Shown here piece after piece: positions 1 to 38,207 of a DNA stretch of 44,186 nucleotides (the stretch's first letter is position 1; each line of letters starts with the position of its first letter). Below the pieces are notes generated by a model that worked only from the letters and a program-made list of their open reading frames with translations, was not told the origin of the DNA and ran no database searches. The stretch is from IMG/VR virus record IMGVR_UViG_3300009285_002809, positions 1-44,186 of that record. One strand, 5' to 3'. A program made the position numbers and the translations under genes. This stretch comes from a virus.

Positions 1-50
1 ACCGATTCACTACACCCCGAACCAACTTACGCAATTATATCATTTAACAA

Positions 51-13539: not shown

Positions 13540-13605
13540 ATGTTTATTATTTTTTTAATTTTTCGACTTTTGGTTTATTTTTTTGGTTTATTCTCTAATC
13601 TCTAT

Positions 13606-13637
13606 TTTGGCTGGGGAGTCGCGACTCCCCAGCCAAA
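13606..13637. repeat. perfect 32-bp palindrome between late genes
   Basis: Arms TTTGGCTGGGGAGTCG and CGACTCCCCAGCCAAA are exact inverses with no spacer. It begins 8 bp after the stop of the 245-aa gene. The RNA hairpin would be very stable, but no T-tract follows on either strand, so it is not a standard intrinsic terminator. It may be an mRNA-stabilising or processing hairpin separating high capsid-region expression from downstream genes. Confidence 0.85.
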
Positions 13638-13645
13638 GATAAAGA

Positions 13646-14406: not shown

Positions 14407-15390
14407 TCAGCCGGAATAAGTAGAACTATCTCCCAAACTTCCCCAGACCCCTCTCCAGTCATACGAACATACTCCCAAATCAAGAATAATGTCGAAGAGT
14501 TTGGATTTGGTATCTTTATCCACCAGAACTTCCAAATCTGGCCCTGCTGATACGACTATTGCAAGTTTAGCCCAAGCTGGAGCAACCAAGAACCATTGAG
14601 TGTTTGAACCCACTCCCGAAGCGGAAATTCCCAAATCCAGCCAAGAAGAAGACATAACTTTCATGTATCCGCCAGAGTAGATGTTGATGTCGTTGTTCGC
14701 AGTCGCGGAACGCTGGTCTGATTTGGTAATTATCTGGGCGGTTTTATCGTTGTTGATTCCAACCACTAGATAAATTTCTCCAGGAGCAACCATTGGCACG
14801 CCGTCATCTTGAAGCTGGTTCAAGAGAGCGATGCGTCCTGTTTCCACATTGGTTTCAGTCAAAGGAATCGAAGTTCCCGAAGCGTTGGATTGCGCCGTCC
14901 CGCCGTCAGAACGAGGATGAGAAGTTGAAGCCAAAGCCACTCCATCCCCGTAAGGCACGACTCGCGTCCCGCCCGTAACTCCAGAACCCGATGTGAAAGC
15001 CCGATTGAAGATTTGTCCTCCCGCGCGGGACATATAAACTCTGACTGCGGTAGTAAGGTCATTATTCTCACTGAAAGAATCGGCAAAATCTCTGTAAAGT
15101 AAGGTCTGTCTGGTTATTTCAATACGGCCTCCGACTGGTTCTTGAGTTACCGAAGTGTCATATAACTTATATCTGTTCAGAGAAGGAATAGCGGAACCAT
15201 CAGAGAATCTCTGAAGGAATCCCGCTCCTGTTTTCCCTGAAAAGTTGGAAGTCAAATCGTTAGAGCGCGTGGCTTTAACGACTGGCTCCCATCCATTTAC
15301 TTGTGAGAGAGGCGTTTGCGAGAAGAACTCAACAAATGTAACTCCTACTCCTCGTATCGCATCCCCCCAAGTCGCGATGTTTTCTGGCAT
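14407..15390 (-). CDS. major capsid protein (HK97-fold type)
   Basis: 327 residues. Length, position after the scaffold and decoration genes and an evenly mixed alpha/beta composition fit an HK97-fold capsid protein. Segments such as GGRIEITRQTLLYRDFADSF (about residue 88) and the central spine-helix-like region with AVRVYMSRAGGQIFNRAF support this. No Shine-Dalgarno site is present; the start follows AAATTACTTAA. No protease domain precedes it, so head maturation may be scaffold-based without cleavage. Confidence 0.7.
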   Translation of the reverse strand: MPENIATWGDAIRGVGVTFVEFFSQTPLSQVNGWEPVVKATRSNDLTSNFSGKTGAGFLQRFSDGSAIPSLNRYKLYDTSVTQEPVGGRIEITRQTLLYRDFADSFSENNDLTTAVRVYMSRAGGQIFNRAFTSGSGVTGGTRVVPYGDGVALASTSHPRSDGGTAQSNASGTSIPLTETNVETGRIALLNQLQDDGVPMVAPGEIYLVVGINNDKTAQIITKSDQRSATANNDINIYSGGYMKVMSSSWLDLGISASGVGSNTQWFLVAPAWAKLAIVVSAGPDLEVLVDKDTKSKLFDIILDLGVCSYDWRGVWGSLGDSSTYSG

Positions 15391-16761: not shown

Positions 16762-16806
16762 GTTTAACAGCTAATTATTACGCCTTTAGCCTAGGCCTTA
16801 ACAAAT

Positions 16807-16833
16807 AAAAAACCTGACCTATTAAGCGTCAGG
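16807..16833 (-). terminator. intrinsic terminator before the scaffold gene
   Basis: On the minus strand CCTGAC, a 9-nt loop and GTCAGG form a hairpin followed directly by TTTTTT (16812-16807). It would stop or attenuate transcription coming from terminase-portal about 46 bp before the scaffold start. Confidence 0.7.
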
Positions 16834-16846
16834 GCTAAATCTAAAA

Positions 16847-16852
16847 ATTATA
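16847..16852 (-). promoter_or_regulatory. possible leftward -10 element for the capsid operon
   Basis: TATAAT on the minus strand, with TTAAGA 18 bp upstream as a weak -35. Transcription would start near 16840, just before the terminator hairpin, which would then act as an attenuator. The AT-rich context makes chance likely. Confidence 0.3.
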
Positions 16853-16944
16853 TGTCAGGCTATAACTAACTCTTAATTCAGAAATAGCATATCCTTACCG
16901 CAAGTCAATAGCTTCACAACGAGGACTGTGCAAAACTAATTTTC

Positions 16945-17008
16945 TTGAGAGAAGCGAAGTCAGGCCCTGACAATATCTGACTCGCTCCCCTAGAGGCGCC
17001 TCTCTCAA
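16945..17008. other. folded element in the portal-scaffold gap
   Basis: The gap between 17,088 and 16,761 has no gene. TTGAGAGA (16945-16952) pairs with TCTCTCAA (17001-17008) and encloses a 10-bp helix with one bulge (16953-16963 with 16977-16986) and a 12-bp palindrome AGAGGCGCCTCT that gives an alternative fold. I tried a tRNA cloverleaf and found no T-loop or anticodon arm. Likely an untranslated mRNA structure in the late transcript. Confidence 0.55.
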
Positions 17009-17087
17009 AAAAACTATCAATAATGCCACATTTTGTGATGTTTTAATTTTTTACCAATCATGTTCTTTAATTTTTTATGTCTATATT

Positions 17088-20081: not shown

Positions 20082-21539
20082 CTAGTAAACGGATGTCATT
20101 TGTTCTATTTCTTTTTCGGATAAAGACGGATAACTTCGAGAAGTTTTCGTTTGCCCCGTTCCCAAAAATGAAAGCATTAAAGCGTCGGCGCAATCAGGAG
20201 AAGAAATTCCTCTTTCCTGAAGTTCTAACTTGGAAATAATCTGGTATTTTCCCGAAAGCGTCCGCTTATATTTGATGTCCAAAAGCTGTTTCCAATGGTC
20301 ATGACGAACCAATTCTCCGCCGCTCCTCAGCCAGTCTCTAAGACGCAGGTAGGCTTCAGCCCGAAGATTCAGGTAAGTTTTGGGGTCGGCTGAAATTCCG
20401 CCCACATTCACACCCTGAACTCTGAAACGGGGTTCGGCCAGAGCAATCTCTTGAGCTACATTGGCTCCGACTCCAAAATTGTCTATAAAAACATTCCCTT
20501 CGTTTACCCGATAATGAGACATCAAAGTAATGGTTTTTTCCGCTACGGATTTTGCCGTGGAAAACTGCTCTCTGGCGATAAGTTTAGCCCGAAACTGGTC
20601 TCTTAAAACCCAGATGGTTTCGTTCTTTCCTTCTCCGCCCACGTCAACTCCCAAAACGGCTTTCTCCAAAAGCCGGCCGTCATCCGGAACCTGCCGCAGT
20701 TCAACCGGAAGCAGAAGGGAAATATAACCTTTCTTGTCCATTCCTTCGGCGTGAGGAAACTGCCCCAAAACGAAAACTCTGTATTCGTCCGAATCCAGCC
20801 CATAAGAAGCCTTCACCCCCACGAAGTCAGAAGGAACGATGGGAGAGTCCGTGGAAGAAAAGTTAAATGTTTTCCAGCTTTCTTTTTTGAAAGTTTCATA
20901 AAAATATCCTTCGGTGCGGGTAGGATTGGAAATCAGAAGAACCAAAGCGTTGGGAGCGGCCAGAATTCCTTCGGCGGTTTCAAAAATCAGGTCATCTATG
21001 CCTGACGCTTCTTCGGCCACCAAAAGGACATGCTCGCCGTGAAGTCCGGAAAAAGCCTCCGGAGTCTCTTTGCGAGCCGTGGCGGCCCTGGCAAACCAGG
21101 TATGGGGACGGGGAATCATTCTGATATGAGTCTGCTGCCAGTCGTAAAGAAGCTGAAATTCTTTAGGCATCTCGTTTATCCATTTTCTCAATTCTTTCCA
21201 CAGCACGTCATAAAGCTGGGATTGGGAAGGAGAAGTAACAGAAACTTGAGCTTCTTTGAATGAAAATAAAAACCATAAAACAACCCAAGCCGCCAGACAA
21301 GATTTTCCGATATTGTTTCCCGAAGCCACGGAGAGCTTGTTTTTGCCGCCTCCCATTGCTTCTTCAATCGCCAACAAAACATCTTCCTGATGCCAAGTGA
21401 TGTGTTTCCCTTTCTCAAACTTCAAGTTATCTCTTTCGGGAGTCAATTTCCACATCAGCTTCACAAATTCCAAAGGAGATTTGCGGAGCTTCTGCATTAG
21501 ACTGATAGATTCAGAAGATATATTCAAAGACGGGGTCAA
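20082..21539 (-). CDS. terL: terminase large subunit
   Basis: 485 residues. ATPase: a Walker A-type loop S73-GNNIGKS80, a Walker B strand VLLVAEE (171-177), and ISNPT (203-207) as the coupling motif. RNase H-like nuclease: GVDVGG with D299, FIDNFGVG with D353, and SPDCADA with D449/D452. Together these drive DNA packaging and headful or site cleavage. The start is TTG following an A/T-rich stretch with no Shine-Dalgarno site; no upstream ATG is in frame. Confidence 0.93.
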   Translation of the reverse strand: MTPSLNISSESISLMQKLRKSPLEFVKLMWKLTPERDNLKFEKGKHITWHQEDVLLAIEEAMGGGKNKLSVASGNNIGKSCLAAWVVLWFLFSFKEAQVSVTSPSQSQLYDVLWKELRKWINEMPKEFQLLYDWQQTHIRMIPRPHTWFARAATARKETPEAFSGLHGEHVLLVAEEASGIDDLIFETAEGILAAPNALVLLISNPTRTEGYFYETFKKESWKTFNFSSTDSPIVPSDFVGVKASYGLDSDEYRVFVLGQFPHAEGMDKKGYISLLLPVELRQVPDDGRLLEKAVLGVDVGGEGKNETIWVLRDQFRAKLIAREQFSTAKSVAEKTITLMSHYRVNEGNVFIDNFGVGANVAQEIALAEPRFRVQGVNVGGISADPKTYLNLRAEAYLRLRDWLRSGGELVRHDHWKQLLDIKYKRTLSGKYQIISKLELQERGISSPDCADALMLSFLGTGQTKTSRSYPSLSEKEIEQMTSVY

Positions 21540-21797: not shown

Positions 21798-22244
21798 TCA
21801 TTTGACATCTTCATTTTCAGTTAAGATAATTGGAGGGGAGTTTCGGCTATTCGAAACTTCTTTTCTTTTCTCTGCTTCTTCGGTTTGAGTAAGCAAAGCG
21901 AATAAATCTATTGTCGCAGTAATATGCTTCTCGGGAGCGTAAGAGCCGAATAACCTGAAAGTCTGATCTGCGGCTCTTAAAATATCATCTGGCATAACTT
22001 TTTCTTTCTTCAACGGAACTTCTAACATTTCGGCTACTCGATGTTTGGCTTGTTCTTCAGATAAACCTTTTCTTTTCAAAGCATCCTTAAACGATTTGGT
22101 TTCTATCGTCTTACTTAACCTACCAGTTCTGGCGTTACTGGGTTTGAACCCTGCTCTTAATCGCGCTTCAATTCCGGTTCTGCTTATACCATTCAGTAAA
22201 TCATCAACTAGTTCATCATAGACTTTTGGAAGTAGTTTTGGCAT
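21798..22244 (-). CDS. terS: terminase small subunit
   Basis: 148 residues. The N-terminal helical region with GISRTGIEARLRAGFKPSNA resembles the DNA-binding HTH of TerS proteins. The central segment ends with RLFGSYAPEKH, a motif that recurs in TerS-like proteins, as I recall. The C-terminus is charged. Position 5' of TerL in transcription order supports the call. It would bind packaging sites and stimulate TerL. Confidence 0.7.
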   Translation of the reverse strand: MPKLLPKVYDELVDDLLNGISRTGIEARLRAGFKPSNARTGRLSKTIETKSFKDALKRKGLSEEQAKHRVAEMLEVPLKKEKVMPDDILRAADQTFRLFGSYAPEKHITATIDLFALLTQTEEAEKRKEVSNSRNSPPIILTENEDVK

Positions 22245-22342: not shown

Positions 22343-22370
22343 TTGACACTACTTATTTATCCTTTATACT
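22343..22370 (+). promoter_or_regulatory. strong rightward sigma70-type promoter
   Basis: TTGACA (22343-22348), a 16-bp spacer and TATACT (22365-22370). Start expected near 22377, just before the folded leader. It is divergent from the TerS gene and is one of only two near-consensus rightward promoters seen. Confidence 0.7.
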
Positions 22371-22382
22371 GAAACTAGTTTA

Positions 22383-22497
22383 ATAGCCTTGGGCTATAAT
22401 TAAAAAAAATAAGAGGCGATGGCGAAAGCTAGAAGTTATTTAATCCGAGGCCTTGGCCTGCGGATAACAAGAACTTTCAACCCTCGCCTCTTATTTT
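22383..22497 (+). ncRNA. structured leader RNA of the rightward island
   Basis: A small hairpin ATAGCC/GGCTAT (22383-22397) is followed by a long 14-bp perfect stem AAAATAAGAGGCGA (22406-22419) with TCGCCTCTTATTTT (22484-22497). Inside are GAAAG/CTTTC, GTTA/TAAC and TCCG/CGGA helices, capped by AGGC-CTTG-GCCT, a CUUG tetraloop (22448-22459). No ORF explains the pairing. It begins within a few bases of the predicted start site, so it is the 5' leader of the tiny rightward genes; a freestanding RNA is an alternative. It matches no riboswitch class I recognise. Confidence 0.6.
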
Positions 22498-22535
22498 AAG
22501 AATAAAGGTAACCCGGCAGAAAGTCAAGTACCTTG

Positions 22536-22797
22536 AAAACCGAATACAACAAACGAAAAGACAGATGTAATCTTAAAAATAATAAAACTATATGACTAAT
22601 GAAATGAATATATACACATTGTTTTACTCTTTATACAATCCCCGAAATAGATGGGTCGGAGATATGTATTTGAGGTATAAACAAATCATCGCAAAAAATG
22701 AAAAAGAAGCCGTAGCAATTCTTGAAAGAATTGAAGACCCATACGATGAGCTTGAACTTGTTATAAAAAATTAATCAGTTCTGTTGTATTCCGTTTT
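22536..22797. repeat. 16-bp inverted repeat flanking a tiny gene
   Basis: AAAACCGAATACAACA (22536-22551) and TGTTGTATTCCGTTTT (22782-22797) are inverse with one mismatch in 16. They bracket the 60-codon gene. In RNA they could close a loop around the cistron. Just after the right arm GTGCA-GATA-TGCAC forms another hairpin. Confidence 0.7.
22592..22774 (+). CDS. tiny rightward protein, unknown
   Basis: 60 residues: MTNEMNIYTLFYSLYNPRNR, then a charged helical C-terminus with EAVAILERIEDPYDELELVI. Compact, with one likely alpha/beta unit and no membrane segment. First of three rightward genes after the leader. Not recognised. Its orientation and strong promoter suggest a role in an early or lysogenic state rather than virion building. 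Confidence 0.6.
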   Translation: MTNEMNIYTLFYSLYNPRNRWVGDMYLRYKQIIAKNEKEAVAILERIEDPYDELELVIKN

Positions 22798-22880
22798 TAA
22801 GTGCAGATATGCACCTTGAAAAATAAATATCAATATCACCGAAAGGGCGCGAAGCGATAAAAAGGCACAATAAAAAAATT

Positions 22881-23030
22881 ATGTCAATGGGTTATCGAGA
22901 GTATGCCCGGCTTCTCAAAATAATGAGCCGGTCAAAGAAAGTGAAAAACCTGTTTATGGAAGGAAAGAGAATCGAAATACAATATGAGCCTGTGCAAGAT
23001 AAAATTTATTTTTTGGATTGGCTCTTTTAA
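22881..23030 (+). CDS. tiny basic protein, unknown
   Basis: 49 residues, basic helical N-terminus (MSMGYREYARLLKIMSRSKK) and a hydrophobic aromatic C-terminus (IYFLDWLF). A-rich upstream with no Shine-Dalgarno site. Second gene of the rightward island. Found by hand; could be a DNA-binding or anti-host peptide, but nothing proves it. Confidence 0.5.
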   Translation: MSMGYREYARLLKIMSRSKKVKNLFMEGKRIEIQYEPVQDKIYFLDWLF

Positions 23031-23049
23031 GTATTTTAATTCAATTATT

Positions 23050-23214
23050 ATGAAAACAAAACACGCCACATTTTACAGCTATTGGAAGCCCTTGCAAGAC
23101 AAGGAGCGGCGCTGGAATAGGGCTAGAAGGCTTGGAATTGAGCTAGGACAAGCGATAATAGGGTTAGCTGTGCTTTATGCCGTTTATATCATTCTGTGGG
23201 GCTTAACGCTTTAA
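23050..23214 (+). CDS. small single-span membrane protein, paralogue of 33384-33551
   Basis: 54 residues. A basic aromatic N-terminus (KERRWNRARRLG) leads to ELGQAIIGLAVLYAVYIILW, a clear membrane span. About 20 of 37 aligned positions are identical to the leftward 55-residue protein, including E-x-GQAxIGL and AVYxIL. The topology (positive-inside rule) places the N-terminus in the cytoplasm. Unknown function; immunity, superinfection exclusion or holin control are possible. Confidence 0.65.
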   Translation: MKTKHATFYSYWKPLQDKERRWNRARRLGIELGQAIIGLAVLYAVYIILWGLTL

Positions 23215-23258: not shown

Positions 23259-23402
23259 TTAATCATTAGATTTTTCTTTCCTTCGCTTCAAAAATATCAC
23301 TAATTGAAACACAATTTTTGCCGTTATCACTATCGCTATCGAAACCGCGATATAAGGCAGGGCCGCGCCAACTTGCGGACAAAAACCCCAAAATGTTTCC
23401 AC
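23259..23402 (-). CDS. small membrane protein with GTG start
   Basis: 47 residues from GTG 23402 (57 from GTG 23432). ETFWGFCPQVGAALPY precedes a span IAVSIAIVITAKIVFQLVIF and a basic tail KRRKEKSND. The 23402 start is preferred because the DNA upstream aligns with the leader of the gene at 24751, where the start ATG sits at the equivalent place. Unknown role. Confidence 0.5.
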   Translation of the reverse strand: METFWGFCPQVGAALPYIAVSIAIVITAKIVFQLVIFLKRRKEKSND

Positions 23403-24774: not shown

Positions 24775-24809
24775 AGAAGTTTCCACCCTTTTATTATATC
24801 ACAATATAT
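24775..24809 (-). promoter_or_regulatory. leftward extended -10 promoter, repeat copy B
   Basis: TGATATAAT (core 24798-24793) then AAAAGGGTGGAAACTTC. Shares ATATTGTGATATAATAAA and GTGGAAACTTC with copy A at 23.43 kb. Predicted start near 24786, leaving a leader of about 35 nt before the ATG at 24751. Confidence 0.55.
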
Positions 24810-25081
24810 CCTTTTCCAAAACAGCTTCGGCAGGTTTCGGTTGAATTAGTGGTAGAAGTTCCAGGATTATAAAAGTCTGATGACACAAACCCTCGTCCTT
24901 CGCAAATGGGACACTTTTTAGGTTCGGAAGTAGGTTCGGAAGATTGTAATTTATTTTTTTCGTAAAAAGGCCTGCATATTTCTCCGCAAACGATGAAACT
25001 TCCACCACCACACAAATTGTCAACTCCTTCATGTTCTTGGTGACAAATAAAACAATGCCAAATTAGTTCTAATTTCTTCAT
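24794..25081 (-). CDS. zinc-finger protein with DnaJ-like CxxCxGxG motifs
   Basis: 95 residues. CFICHQEH and a Gly/Cys segment near the start, then CPICEGRGF and CRSCFGKGY, two CxxCxGxG repeats as in the DnaJ zinc domain. No J-domain, so not a full co-chaperone. Probably a small zinc protein that binds nucleic acid or another protein. Its 3' end overlaps promoter copy B. Confidence 0.65.
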   Translation of the reverse strand: MKKLELIWHCFICHQEHEGVDNLCGGGSFIVCGEICRPFYEKNKLQSSEPTSEPKKCPICEGRGFVSSDFYNPGTSTTNSTETCRSCFGKGYIVI

Positions 25082-26216: not shown

Positions 26217-26522
26217 TTAATAGGGAATTCTTTGCCACTTATATCCACCATATTCCAAAATTTCAGCAGGTTCTTTCTCTCTGCTTCCGCAACATTTGGG
26301 ACATTTAACAAAAACCCAATCATCAGTTGGCGTTCTATCTTTATCTATCTGCCCTACAATCATTAACCGACCGCCTTTTGCTTTAACTGCCTCTGTATTT
26401 AATCTTGATTTTTGTAAAGGACTTATTCCCATTCCTTCGCACCAATCACAAGAATTTTCGTCAGGATAAGGCGTTCCTGTGGCTTGGTATCTATCCGTAA
26501 ATTCTATTTTTTCTTCTTTCAT
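26217..26522 (-). CDS. small zinc-binding protein
   Basis: 101 residues with CDWCEGMG at residue 25 and CPKCCGSR near 75; a beta region lies between. The CxxCxGxG/CxxC pairing resembles DnaJ-type zinc clusters. Ends in YGGYKWQRIPY. Part of the early cluster of zinc proteins. Confidence 0.55.
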   Translation of the reverse strand: MKEEKIEFTDRYQATGTPYPDENSCDWCEGMGISPLQKSRLNTEAVKAKGGRLMIVGQIDKDRTPTDDWVFVKCPKCCGSREKEPAEILEYGGYKWQRIPY

Positions 26523-27224: not shown

Positions 27225-27389
27225 CAACGCCGTATCGGAAAGATTTTAGCGTTGTTTCTTAAAGGCTAGCGGGACAACTATGGCGGGTAAAACCAGATGT
27301 CCTGGCTCGTTATTCCCGCTTTCGCGGCTTTCGCCGCCGCCAGCCTCTATTCCTAACAGAGGGTTACATTCGCTATAGCGAAGAGGCAT
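27225..27389 (-). ncRNA. multi-stem RNA-like element, candidate ncRNA
   Basis: The 221-bp gap 27,185-27,405 folds strongly on the minus strand. GGCTGGC (27345-27339) pairs with GCTAGCC (27270-27264, one G-U) and encloses GCGGC-GAAA-GCCGC (27337-27324, GNRA tetraloop) and GCGGG/CCCGC (27319-27315 with 27287-27283) that holds CCAG-GACAT-CTGG. Upstream GCCTCT/AGAGGC encloses TTCGC-TATA-GCGAA; downstream CAACGC/GCGTTG adds a stem. A 47-codon ORF with GGAGGAGA before its ATG (27389-27246) overlaps it and is the main alternative. No group I intron core (R or S) was seen. Confidence 0.45.
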
Positions 27390-29498: not shown

Positions 29499-29526
29499 TT
29501 GACAGGATTTTCACATATGCTATATT
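29499..29526 (+). promoter_or_regulatory. strong rightward sigma70-type promoter
   Basis: TTGACA (29499-29504), 16-bp spacer, TATATT (29521-29526). Expected start near 29533. No gene follows; an intrinsic terminator does. Confidence 0.65.
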
Positions 29527-29532
29527 GATAGC

Positions 29533-29594
29533 AGATGTTGTCATAAACAGAGTATACGGCAGGCCGCCTCCTTAAGCAAGAGGCGGTTTTGCTT
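29533..29594 (+). ncRNA. candidate short RNA of about 60 nt
   Basis: Bounded by the promoter at 29499-29526 and the terminator at 29564-29594; no ORF longer than three codons is present. It lies in a leftward gene region. The RNA contains CCTCCTTA in the terminator arm and loop, which equals the 16S anti-Shine-Dalgarno core, so it could pair with GGAGG-type ribosome sites. Exact 5' end is inferred. Confidence 0.5.
29564..29594 (+). terminator. rightward intrinsic terminator
   Basis: CCGCCTC (29564-29570), loop CTTAAGCAA, GAGGCGG (29580-29586), then TTTTGCTTTC. Seven G/C-rich base pairs and a short T tract, oriented rightward. Confidence 0.75.
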
Positions 29595-29600
29595 TCTATA

Positions 29601-30410: not shown

Positions 30411-30866
30411 TTATATGTCAAGGACTTGGCTTTTCCAGTAATCTTCCGGCGTTCCTATGTGAATTCCCATTTCTTCGGCTTCCTGTTTAATAACCATAAT
30501 AAATTCTGCGGCTTCCCCAACGCTCATTTCGCTTAATCCTTTGCGGCTCATTATTTCCCGCCCTTTCCATTTTCGGATAACTATCGGAGCATAAAGAGGT
30601 TTAAAAACTTCATAGTAAAGTTGATTGATTGTGTAGCCGGTATGTTCGGCGATAGGAGGAAGAACTCCTCCGAAAAAATATCCAAGCTGTTGGAGGGTTT
30701 TCCGGCTTTTGATTCTTTCAATGATGATTTTAACTGGACAATCCTGATAGAGCGCAAGCTGGAAAGCGATAAATTTCCGGCTGGCTTCCAGCTTGCCTCC
30801 TCTCAAGTAGCTGTTAAAAACTAAAGAATCGAGTTTCTTTTTCGGTTTTGTTTCGGTTGTCGTCAT
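30411..30866 (-). CDS. ninB: NinB-like recombination protein
   Basis: 151 residues. The pattern KSRKTLQQLGYFFGGVLPPI, then LYYEVFKPLYAPIV and a final MSVGEAAEFIMVIKQEAEEM with GIHIGTPEDY follows the layout of lambda NinB family proteins, where the end interacts with SSB and ssDNA to aid RecF-type recombination. The neighbour NinG supports this. Stop and NinG start overlap by 4 bp. Confidence 0.7.
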   Translation of the reverse strand: MTTTETKPKKKLDSLVFNSYLRGGKLEASRKFIAFQLALYQDCPVKIIIERIKSRKTLQQLGYFFGGVLPPIAEHTGYTINQLYYEVFKPLYAPIVIRKWKGREIMSRKGLSEMSVGEAAEFIMVIKQEAEEMGIHIGTPEDYWKSQVLDI

Positions 30867-31264
30867 CGAATTATTATATATGAATCCTTATACTTTTTGA
30901 TTTTTTCCTCTAAATACTCGCGAGAAAAACGCATAGGTTTGACAGCTTGCTGCCGCAGTTCCTGCATTTTTTTGAGTCCATAGTCCTCAATTAAACGAAG
31001 CGCATATTCTCCCAAGTTTCCAGATTTGAAAACATTACAGAGCAAACAGCAGAGATTCACATTCATCTCGTTGAAACGAACTGCATTTTTGTTGTGAATG
31101 AAATGTGCGGCATGGATTGCTCCTGGATTTCGGCAAATATAACACCTTCCCCCCGATTTTTTTAAATCTCGCCTTCGTATAAAAGCATTGAAAACTTGAA
31201 TAGCTTCCCGTTTTAAGACAGACAAGGGACGCTTGGATTGTTTTTTTAATTTAGATTTTTTCAT
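30863..31264 (-). CDS. ninG: NinG (Rap)-family Holliday-junction protein
   Basis: 133 residues. FNAFIRRRD (25-33), CYIC (41-44), AAHFIH (52-57), AVRFNEMNVN (61-70), CCLLCN and KSGNLGEYALRLIEDYG (80-96) match the NinG consensus: zinc ligands around an HNH-like core. Lambda NinG is a junction-specific nuclease in recombination. Slightly shorter than lambda NinG but complete. Confidence 0.9.
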   Translation of the reverse strand: MKKSKLKKQSKRPLSVLKREAIQVFNAFIRRRDLKKSGGRCYICRNPGAIHAAHFIHNKNAVRFNEMNVNLCCLLCNVFKSGNLGEYALRLIEDYGLKKMQELRQQAVKPMRFSREYLEEKIKKYKDSYIIIR

Positions 31265-31527
31265 TTTGTCGCTTCTATCAGCAATCTAATATCTCTTTCT
31301 TTGGAATTTTCCGGCAATTTGTTTATTTCAATCATTCGATAGTCGCGGACATTTCTGTATCCGTGTTCGCATTTCTGCGATTCAAACCGATAACGTCCGG
31401 TTCTGGTCAATTCCGCGCGCCGTTTATGTGGATTGAAAATCCAAAGAGTCGTTCTAAATTCATTTCCACAATGAAATTCGCCGTCAGAACACATTTGGAT
31501 TATCTTGCTGTATTGAGTCTGATACAT
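31261..31527 (-). CDS. small winged-helix-like protein
   Basis: 88 residues. IIQMCSDGEFHCGNEFRTTL, then RRAELTRTGRYRFESQKCEH, and a beta end (YRNVRDYRMIEIN) read like a compact winged-helix module as found in phage early regions. Overlaps NinG by ATGA. Probable DNA-binding protein. Confidence 0.55.
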   Translation of the reverse strand: MYQTQYSKIIQMCSDGEFHCGNEFRTTLWIFNPHKRRAELTRTGRYRFESQKCEHGYRNVRDYRMIEINKLPENSKERDIRLLIEATK

Positions 31528-31529
31528 TT

Positions 31530-31745
31530 CTAATAATCTTTTAATTTTTCATTCATCTTTTCTTCAAATTCTCGCCAGTCGTCGTGCGGATTGTCGCATC
31601 TTCCGATGAACGGGTGAATAATTTTATATAAGTCATTCAATATCGGATTTCTTTCGTCTTCATTGTTAATCATTATAATTTTCTCGCAAGTTTCTAAAAC
31701 TTGACGCAATTTTATCGGCGATACTTTTCTGAATGATTTGCTCAC
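31530..31745 (-). CDS. small hypothetical protein
   Basis: 71 residues, helical and charged (VLETCEKIIMINNEDERNPI; DDWREFEEKMNEKLKDY). Lies between two putative DNA-binding genes; ATGA overlap with the DnaA-like gene. Confidence 0.5.
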   Translation of the reverse strand: MSKSFRKVSPIKLRQVLETCEKIIMINNEDERNPILNDLYKIIHPFIGRCDNPHDDWREFEEKMNEKLKDY

Positions 31746-31966
31746 TTTAGATAATTTCTTATAGTCGTTCGCTCCCGATTTATAAGTTCAGCGATAATAC
31801 GGGGAACAAGTTTATATCTGCCGTAAAGAATCTGGACGGCCTTGCGGCGCAGTTCAACATCTTCCTGTTTCCGGCTTTTGGAGCGAATTCTTGAAAGCTG
31901 AACTTCTGGCAGGGACTCAAGGAAAAGACGGGCTTTTTCCAAATTGTCGGGAAGTTTAGGATTCAT
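31742..31966 (-). CDS. DnaA domain-IV-like HTH protein
   Basis: 74 residues. The C-terminal half (ELRRKAVQILYGRYKLVPRI then IAELINRERTTIRNYLK) follows DnaA domain IV, where R-D-H-T-T-V recognises DnaA boxes; here R-E-R-T-T-I. No AAA+ part. It may act as an origin or repressor protein. Perfect DnaA boxes lie 1.6 kb away. Confidence 0.6.
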   Translation of the reverse strand: MNPKLPDNLEKARLFLESLPEVQLSRIRSKSRKQEDVELRRKAVQILYGRYKLVPRIIAELINRERTTIRNYLK

Positions 31967-32253
31967 TTATCGTGATTATGACAATTCTGTTTACCTCCGA
32001 AACATTCGCATTCTTGAGGACAATCACAAATGTCTTTATGGCTGGGTTCGTTTAAATCGCTTATAGGGACTATCTCCCCTGTGTCTGGAGCAAAGGTCAT
32101 TTTTTCCTCTAGCTCGTGTCCCAGCTCAATTATGGAGTCTTGGAGGGCCTCTGGGTGAGTTTCCTCCCAAAGTTCCTGTTGGATTTCTTGATAATTTTTA
32201 GGTTCGTTCATTTCCTTTTTTAATTCTTCGTAACTTTTAGACATATTGTTCAA
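31963..32253 (-). CDS. acidic protein with C-terminal Cys/His cluster
   Basis: 96 residues. Acidic helical body (EELKKEMNEPKNYQEIQQEL) and CDCPQECECFGGKQNCHNHD at the end, many possible metal ligands. Starts inside the end of the HNH gene (17-bp overlap). The alternative start MSKS is three codons later. Unknown. Confidence 0.5.
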   Translation of the reverse strand: MNNMSKSYEELKKEMNEPKNYQEIQQELWEETHPEALQDSIIELGHELEEKMTFAPDTGEIVPISDLNEPSHKDICDCPQECECFGGKQNCHNHDK

Positions 32254-32797
32254 TCTTCATTTCTATAGATAATTTTTTATAAATTTGATGATATAATTTC
32301 CAAAATTCTTTTTGCTTTTCTGGTAATTTAATAAGATAAGACCATTTTTCTCTATCAGCTATTGTTTTCTTTTTATGACAATTGGGACATCTCGCATGAA
32401 GATTATTTAAATCATTTTTCAATAATGGGAAAAGAGATTTGGGTAAGTCGTGGTCCGTTTCCATAATGTTTTTATCTATTAATCCACAATCTACACAAGT
32501 ATAATTATCTCTTTTTTGTATAACTTTTTGTTGCCATCTTTTATTACCGCCTCCCCGCCAATGAGCAGAATTTTCGCCCATTCTTCCTTTCCAATAACTT
32601 ATACGATTTAAGTAAGATTTTTTTAGACCAATAGATTGTTTCTTTAAAATTTCTATTGATGGGGAATAAAGACCTTTCTTATCTTTATTCCAAGGAACTT
32701 GTCCTTTAATAAACCATCCTTTTTCACCACCAGATAAAAATTTATGTCCCTTTTGGAATCTAGTTTTTATACTAACTATATTAAGATTTTTATTCAT
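32237..32797 (-). CDS. HNH homing endonuclease with NUMOD-like N-terminus
   Basis: 186 residues, AT-rich. N-terminal GQVPWNKDKKGLYSPS and SYWKGRMGENSAHWRGG look like NUMOD3-type DNA-binding repeats. The nuclease has CVDCG (101-105), METDHDLP (D115, H116), NNLHARCPNCHKK (N131/N132, C137, C140, H141). It is inserted in a tight operon, overlapping the SSB-like gene by 8 bp. Confidence 0.85.
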   Translation of the reverse strand: MNKNLNIVSIKTRFQKGHKFLSGGEKGWFIKGQVPWNKDKKGLYSPSIEILKKQSIGLKKSYLNRISYWKGRMGENSAHWRGGGNKRWQQKVIQKRDNYTCVDCGLIDKNIMETDHDLPKSLFPLLKNDLNNLHARCPNCHKKKTIADREKWSYLIKLPEKQKEFWKLYHQIYKKLSIEMKIEQYV

Positions 32798-33551: not shown

Positions 33552-33967
33552 ATTTTCAGTTTATCAAAACTATCCAAGCAGTCAAGCGTTGCTGTGGATA
33601 AACTTTTTTAATCTCTTTTGAAATCCCAATTTACCAATTTTTGAAAAATACTTTTTTCCATATAAATCAAGGGTTTTTTGACCTCCTTTTTGACCCAATA
33701 TTGACATTAGTTCTTTCTTATTTTTTGTTATTTTTGAGGTTTGCATATCTTAATCATAAAGCAAACAAGCGACAAGTCAAAGGTGTTTATCCACAACCAT
33801 TAAAACCAAAAGCCGCCTTGCTGATTGAGAATGCTTATATTAAGTTCTCCAGCGCGGGCGGCTCTTGGAGTCGTTAGCCGATTATCAGTTATTAGAAAAC
33901 CTGATAATGCGACTTAAGCGGCGAAAAGAAAACTTTTCATTGTGCCAAGCTCGATTACCGGCACCGC
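33552..33967. other. candidate replication origin region
   Basis: 416 bp with no supported leftward gene. Perfect DnaA boxes: TGTGGATAA at 33593-33601 and TTATCCACA at 33787-33795. Between them TTGAC recurs at 33678, 33690 and 33701 (11-12 bp apart, one helical turn) in AT-rich DNA. The right part (33841-33965) carries stems TTATCAG/CTGATAA, GAAAAG/CTTTTC and GTGCC/GGCAC. A rightward 78-codon ORF here is unlikely. Confidence 0.4.
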
Positions 33968-36924: not shown

Positions 36925-37140
36925 TTAGACTAACAAATTTTTGCTTGCCTTAAATCGAATAACTTTTTTGGCGGGAATTAGTAATTCTTCGCCGGTTTTC
37001 GGATTTCGTCCTTTTCGAGCTTTCCGTTCCACAACACGAAAAATTCCCAAGCCGGTAATTTTCAGATATCCAGTTTCAAGTCCTTCTCTAATTTGATTAA
37101 GTATTTCTACGGGCAGACGCATAATGTAATTTTTCGACAT
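36925..37140 (-). CDS. HU/IHF-family DNA-binding protein (short)
   Basis: 71 residues. GLGIFRVVERKARKGRNPKT and GEELLIPAKKVIRFKASKNL match the HU arm and core (G-x-G-x-F, R-N-P-x-T-G-E). The N-terminal helices are shorter than the usual 90 aa. Bends DNA; may help packaging, replication or phage regulation. Confidence 0.8.
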   Translation of the reverse strand: MSKNYIMRLPVEILNQIREGLETGYLKITGLGIFRVVERKARKGRNPKTGEELLIPAKKVIRFKASKNLLV

Positions 37141-38084: not shown

Positions 38085-38174
38085 TTAAAGAACTCTCCGC
38101 CTTCCTCCCGATTAAGGGAGAAAGGTAGGTAATTAAACTCCTTCCTTTTCAGGAAGAAGGCGGAAAATTCTTAA
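38085..38174 (-). ncRNA. three-way-junction leader RNA
   Basis: Starts at about +1 of the 38.2-kb promoter. Outer helix: TTCTTAA and GAAGGCGGA (38174-38156) pair with TTAAAGAA and TCCGCCTTC (38085-38104), with one bulge and a 3-nt internal loop. Inside: CTTCCT-TTTC-AGGAAG (38141-38156) and CTCCC-GATTAA-GGGAG (38105-38120). The AGGAGG site follows 13 nt after its end. Looks like a regulatory leader; class not recognised. Confidence 0.6.
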
Positions 38175-38178
38175 TTTC

Positions 38179-38207
38179 ATTATACCATATTTCAAACTAT
38201 CTGTTAA
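38179..38207 (-). promoter_or_regulatory. strong leftward sigma70-type promoter
   Basis: TTAACA (38207-38202), 17-bp spacer, TGG-TATAAT extended -10 (core 38184-38179). Expected start near 38172. Confidence 0.75.

Follow-up and report, generated by a model that had tools for sequence, protein, structure and literature searches.

The junction upstream of the terminase genes in this phage is best explained by a promoter-proximal intrinsic terminator that lies between facing promoters, where the terminase/late operon begins, and would be released by antitermination; to this reading of the sequence we give slightly less than an even chance. The hairpin of the putative terminator is real, is the best-supported element of the site and is more interesting than the three short rightward ORFs (ORF1-ORF3, the island) beside it, emphasis on which is unsupported. 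Taken as a whole, a switch of gene expression is a better description of the site than an undescribed group of protein genes, which is not proven.

The hairpin and its facing promoter motifs

The window (the whole stretch analysed here) is the IMG/VR record IMGVR_UViG_3300009285_002809 of an uncultivated phage, and no end repeats were found in its 44,186 bases. Its genes are oriented leftward, including all of those neighbouring the rightward ORFs (22592-23214). The first gene to the left of the junction is the probable terS, the product of which is 35% identical to an ORF upstream of terL in the related locus L111. The coordinates are collected in Table 1.

Table 1. Positions of the elements and genes discussed, in order along the window
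Feature	Position	Strand	Remarks
Capsid gene	14407-15390	-	
Second promoter-terminator leader	16805-16876	-	TTAAGA-18-TATAAT, 13 nt, CCTGAC/GTCAGG hairpin and T6
Large terminase subunit (TerL)	20082-21539	-	485 aa; PHROG terminase large subunit, E = 9e-31
Probable small terminase subunit (TerS)	21798-22244	-	named from its position and from homologues that precede terL in relatives
Rightward sigma70-type promoter motif	22343-22370	+	TTGACA-16-TATACT; 11/12 match; putative start point ~22377
T8 tract, TTATTTTTTTTAA	22402-22409	-	directly after the hairpin leftward; inner four T within the hairpin base
Long hairpin, terminator-type when read leftward	22406-22497	-	92 nt; arms 22406-22419 and 22484-22497; inner branched stem
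Candidate leftward promoter	22499-22527	-	TTGACT-17-TATTCT; 9/12; start point predicted at hairpin base
ORF1, probably coding	22592-22774	+	60 aa; codon score 0.147
ORF2	22881-23030	+	49 aa; codon score inside null
ORF3, from downstream ATG	23050-23214	+	54 aa; codon score inside null; hydrophobic stretch by eye
CxxCxGxG zinc protein	24794-25081	-	95 aa; follows the nin-like region leftward and precedes terS; weak candidate for an antiterminator

Read leftward, the hairpin folds at -44.2 kcal/mol (z -8.6) with 36 pairs, compared with -37.5 kcal/mol (z -6.0; z -4.8 in a separate fold of the + strand) and 33 pairs when it is read rightward. In a fold scan of the whole window it ranks fourth by z on the - strand, but lies outside the top 16 on the + strand. 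The U-tract is also weaker rightward (TTATTTT) than leftward (T8). The sequence-only reading had taken this structure for the folded leader of the island; the fold itself is real, but it is not simply the island's leader, the better fold and U-tract being those read leftward. An Rfam search of the whole window gave no match at the gathering score, and matches within the island were at chance level only.

The putative intrinsic terminator composed of the hairpin and T8 is situated between the leftward promoter motif and terS, about 155 nt before the ATG. While the fold favours the leftward strand, the promoter scores favour the rightward one: the TTGACA-16-TATACT motif pointed out earlier is indeed present with 11 of 12 positions matched, and the + strand of the window contains four matches of at least 11/12 (mean 0.28 and maximum 2 in 40 dinucleotide shuffles), whereas the leftward 9/12 motif is a weak one, with 49 such matches on the - strand of this AT-rich window. 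Because a U-rich tract is found on both sides of the hairpin, its use in both directions is possible.

A parallel to the leftward arrangement was found in L015, the TerL of which is 51% identical to that of the window. On the TerL-sense strand of L015, TTGACT-17-TAAGAT is followed by a 24-bp stem, by TTATTTTTTTTAA and, about 20 nt on, by an ORF of 249 aa; the stem has 24 contiguous pairs (including G-U) in the TerL sense, whereas the opposite strand can form only two separate, shorter helices. The loci, 1.58 Mb in all, contain TTATTTTTTTTAA four times, and only in the window and L015 is CTTGACTTT present upstream of it. Likewise, T8 within 30-230 nt of TTGAC[A/T]-16..18-TANNNT was found for two of 155 promoters (177 loci, 1.58 Mb), namely those of the window and L015. 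Sequence homology of the whole element was not established between the two leaders, as their gapped alignment score was equalled by 3 of 300 shuffles. AAAGTCAA..GTACCTT was rejected as a conserved RNA motif, since its match in L015 is the reverse strand of a -35 box and the matches beyond L015's own contig looked coincidental, and the ACCTTGAAAA repeats were rejected as a boxA-type element, exact 18-mer matches in IMG/VR being in unrelated contexts.

If the terminator acts as proposed, RNA polymerase starting leftward at the hairpin base would make an RNA of about 95 nt and stop before terS unless it had become termination-resistant, and rightward transcription would likewise be attenuated ahead of ORF1-ORF3. 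Expression of the terS/late operon would then depend on read-through, and that of the rightward ORFs might do so too. The antitermination step, phage- or host-encoded, is assumed, and RNA-based antitermination of the HK022 put / Tn916 canT kind could be an alternative route of release. Since the leftward and rightward short RNAs would pair with each other along the hairpin, antisense effects may occur.

An unlikely but not negligible alternative is that a short regulatory RNA is itself the product, either a leftward hairpin RNA antisense to the rightward 5' leader (OOP/sar type) or a rightward sRNA ending at the hairpin. This would suit the facing promoters, the full complementarity over the hairpin and the strong rightward promoters at 21802 and 29499, which meet a terminator within 40 nt and have no gene behind them; however, the element of L015 is leader-like, standing just before a same-strand ORF.

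Plain termination is also possible, because no other candidate end was found for leftward transcripts that traverse the gene-free island. As an insulator, the hairpin would keep transcripts reading through from the operon on the right from reaching the terS promoter. The leftward T8 tract agrees with this, a hairpin also precedes a promoter at 33.8 kb, and insulating terminators are known, e.g. Tn916 T1 (PMC11658703). However, some 760 nt separate the hairpin from the end, at 23259, of the last leftward gene upstream of it, and in the phage group the order promoter-then-terminator is commoner than the reverse (see below), so that we consider mere insulation quite improbable. Still far less probable is a packaging element (pac/cos or a phi29-like packaging RNA) or an RNase III processing site. 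Although the hairpin adjoins terS, and strong hairpins lacking a T-tract occur in other leftward-strand gaps (e.g. near 13.6 and 27.2 kb), T8 and the promoter-like motifs are better suited to transcription, the L015 element lies about 1.9 kb from terL, and the TerL of the window, with full-length relatives, is not a phi29-type ATPase.

Several comparable sites were noticed elsewhere in the window. The second promoter-terminator leader (Table 1) stands before a gene for a 245-aa product, which in turn lies upstream of that for the capsid. At 38091-38207 (-), TTAACA-17-TATAAT (11/12) is followed after 9 nt by a 79-nt hairpin (21-bp stem) and then by a 119-aa ORF. On the + strand, TTGACA-17-GATAAT at 21802-21870 leads directly into a hairpin with a T-tract; the site lies within the 3'-terminal part of the probable terS, on its opposite strand, and an antisense RNA is possible there; in a gene-free gap at 29499-29600, TTGACA-16-TATATT is followed 37 nt on by CCGCCTC/GAGGCGG and TTTTGC, a candidate short rightward RNA. 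More strong leftward-strand intergenic hairpins lie at 13540-13645, 16940-17020, 27240-27350 and 33790-33905 (-), of which that at 33.8 kb has a T-rich tail and those at 13.6 and 16.9 kb have none; these four are possible processing or stability elements.

The rightward ORFs

All three rightward ORFs described in the sequence-only reading are present in their leftward surroundings, but the third more likely starts at 23050 than at 22984: read from the latter (22984-23214), ORF3 overlaps ORF2, whereas the ATG at 23050 comes after the stop of ORF2. When codon use was scored by a model fitted to the leftward genes, with 51 wrong-strand (rightward) ORFs as the null, ORF1 scored above all 51, and its codon use suggests that it is probably a gene; the scores of ORF2 and ORF3 were matched or beaten by 39% and 27% of the null ORFs, respectively.

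The failure to recognise a family for the three was borne out, as no convincing match was found for any of them in PHROGs, Pfam, NCBIfam or PADLOC. Neither did tblastn of ORF1 and ORF3 against 50,697 phage records give a match, nor an exact-peptide pattern scan of IMG/VR reveal a relative of ORF1. Tblastn and blastp of ORF1-ORF3 against 70 relatives selected by TerL gave no match. Nothing links the ORFs to lysogeny, immunity or host takeover, the roles that the sequence-only reading named as frequent in such islands. Direct comparison of the island DNA with phages gave one trivial match, and the single-sequence AlphaFold models of ORF1 and ORF2 (pLDDT 65 and 67, respectively) were too low in confidence for use. 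At 34-35%, the GC content of the island is no different from that of the DNA to its right; the ORFs are missing from all 70 relatives, and no near-identical genome free of the ORFs was found. In our scan, no terminator-like site was seen just downstream of 23214. A 20-nt inverted repeat encloses ORF1 (arms 22532-22551 and 22782-22801, 90% complementary); the arm on the left extends over the sequence that immediately precedes the leftward -35 box.

The 70 viral loci were obtained from an alignment of TerL, and nearly all show 38-62% identity. Many of them have short ORFs directed away from TerS at the corresponding place, and the first of these looks homologous by eye between L111 and L017 (GNVFLVDED..NVAM, with two CxxC pairs); therefore, a divergent small-gene cassette by terS is recurrent and a usual layout in these loci, with varying content. 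The idea of an undescribed module is supported in part, by this recurrent cassette, but no homologues of the ORFs of the window were detected and the hairpin is the better-supported part.

Morons are autonomous accessory gene units in phages, and the island might be a small protein cassette of that type or the remnant of a divergent early operon, with ORF1-ORF3 as the product and the hairpin leader stabilising or attenuating their mRNA. The 11/12 rightward promoter, the 39-nt leader from it to the hairpin (as in relatives), the codon use of ORF1 and the fact that many relatives carry small ORFs pointing away from TerS are all in keeping with such a cassette. We nevertheless regard it as unlikely, in view of the failure to find a homologue for any of the three, the lack of a codon signal in ORF2 and ORF3, and the uninformative models of ORF1 and ORF2.

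Promoter-terminator order and candidate antiterminators

The order of promoters and terminators was counted in 59 non-redundant loci (591 kb), taking a hairpin plus T-tract within 80 nt as a terminator and 200 sets of shifted promoters as the null. Nine promoters of at least 10/12 were followed by a terminator within 80 nt (null mean 2.0, maximum 6), as were five of at least 11/12 (null mean 0.38, maximum 2), and none of the 200 nulls reached either count. The reverse order, terminator before promoter, was found four times at 10/12 or better (null mean 1.8) and once at 11/12 or better (null 0.33). With stems of at least 14 bp there were five forward and no reverse cases, 0.11 being expected. 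These counts are to be read in the light of the fact that the pattern was spotted in the window and L015 beforehand, and that the thresholds were chosen while looking, with several variants run; in a broad variant, hairpin-plus-T elements upstream of terL had no strand preference (57 versus 57).

In L125, L135, L141, L148 and L151 the leader between the -10 box and the stem is 47-58 nt long, compared with a predicted leftward leader of about 0 nt before the island hairpin. The promoter-terminator is followed by the gene for a D5/VapE-type helicase in L135, for a primase-like 673-aa protein in L148, and for proteins of 550 and 660-670 aa at the portal position in L141 and L151. Under the strictest criteria the island element is excluded on both strands, with a leftward promoter of 9/12 and too weak a rightward T-tract, and it is placed in the class because of L015 and the looser scans. 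A conserved leader RNA was not seen among the relatives, the hairpin sequences of which differ, and an anti-terminator pairing in the leader was rejected, since it was absent in most leaders and of borderline strength in L015 and L141, where 3% and 6% of the shuffled leaders, respectively, did equally well.

Other features of the related loci deserve mention. In L129 (1692-1800, -), before a 246-aa gene, GGTACAAGC can pair with GCTTGTACC, or CACCCCC with GTGGGGG plus a T-tract, and this leader can take an attenuator or pseudoknot shape. The TerL ORF of L151 (2723-5239; 838 aa) has by eye an insert resembling an intein in the ATP-binding motif. A clue to the host was sought in GTDB and discarded: the sole contig with this type of TerL, L178 (JAPLUX010000167.1), is in an Aenigmatarchaeota MAG and is probably a binned phage.

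The lambda-like late-leader reading is supported by the gene order, in which the HNH/NinG/NinB genes are followed leftward by two small cysteine-motif proteins, the junction and terS. NinG (E = 1e-25) and NinB (E = 3e-8) are encoded upstream of terS. The NinB, NinG and HNH genes are clustered at 30411-32797 (-) as in the lambda nin region, while the other proteins of the phage are mostly unmatched; a 71-aa HU/IHF-like DNA-binding protein (Pfam E = 2e-18) is encoded at 36925-37140 (-). The proteins of 24794-25081 and 26217-26522 resemble Q-like PHROGs weakly (E = 0.0018 and 4e-4, respectively), and the former also has the Pfam DnaJ zinc motif (E = 1.6e-5, below the cut-off). These Q-like matches are driven by cysteine/zinc motifs, so that CxxCxGxG alone could explain them; a Pfam Q match was absent for both proteins.

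A wider proposal, which we hold to be rather doubtful, is that throughout the lineage the helicase/primase, terminase, capsid-region and portal operons would start with a strong promoter running into a long-stem terminator, and that one undescribed antitermination factor, possibly the small CxxCxGxG zinc protein encoded upstream of terS, next to the nin-like region, would gate expression genome-wide. Little is known of the timing of genes in these uncultivated phages, and the recurrent order of promoter, terminator and gene would predict short RNAs early, readthrough late and a switching factor. It also cautions that a hairpin by an unusual island of ORFs may belong to the opposite strand.

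Comparison with known systems

Like morons, the island ORFs have their own promoter (11/12 at 22343) and an opposite, independent orientation. However, no terminator was found after them, and the neighbouring DNA of the relatives also holds divergent small genes, so that an insertion is only putative.

In the late leader of lambdoid phages, transcription from pR' yields a short leader RNA ending at tR', which is released by Q; the Q binding element lies between the -35 and -10 boxes, and a -10-like pause element just past the start (PMC6606751). The window resembles the pR'-tR' of lambda, 21 and 82 in its order of a candidate sigma70-type promoter, a short predicted leader, a putative intrinsic terminator and the late genes beyond; another likeness is that nin-like genes and one for a small zinc protein precede those of the terminase. 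In contrast to the lambdoid system with its Q, no Q-family antiterminator was identified in the window, where, moreover, the predicted start point already falls at the onset of the hairpin, an opposing promoter faces the terminator, and the candidate late promoter is only 9/12, those of the relatives being better. The related phages also differ from the lambdoids in carrying a promoter-terminator before primase/helicase genes.

Processive antitermination by a leader RNA is known from the put RNA of HK022 and canT of Tn916 (PMC11658703). Common to these and the window are a promoter-proximal RNA and terminators before the genes of the element, whereas in the present phage group no conserved leader RNA was found and the hairpins vary in sequence. 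Lambda OOP and P22 sar are short terminated phage RNAs opposite another transcript (PMC12197685). In the window, unlike in these, the overlap would be with the 5' leader of ORFs without assigned function, but the layout predicted from the sequence would similarly permit a short terminated RNA complementary to the opposing transcript.
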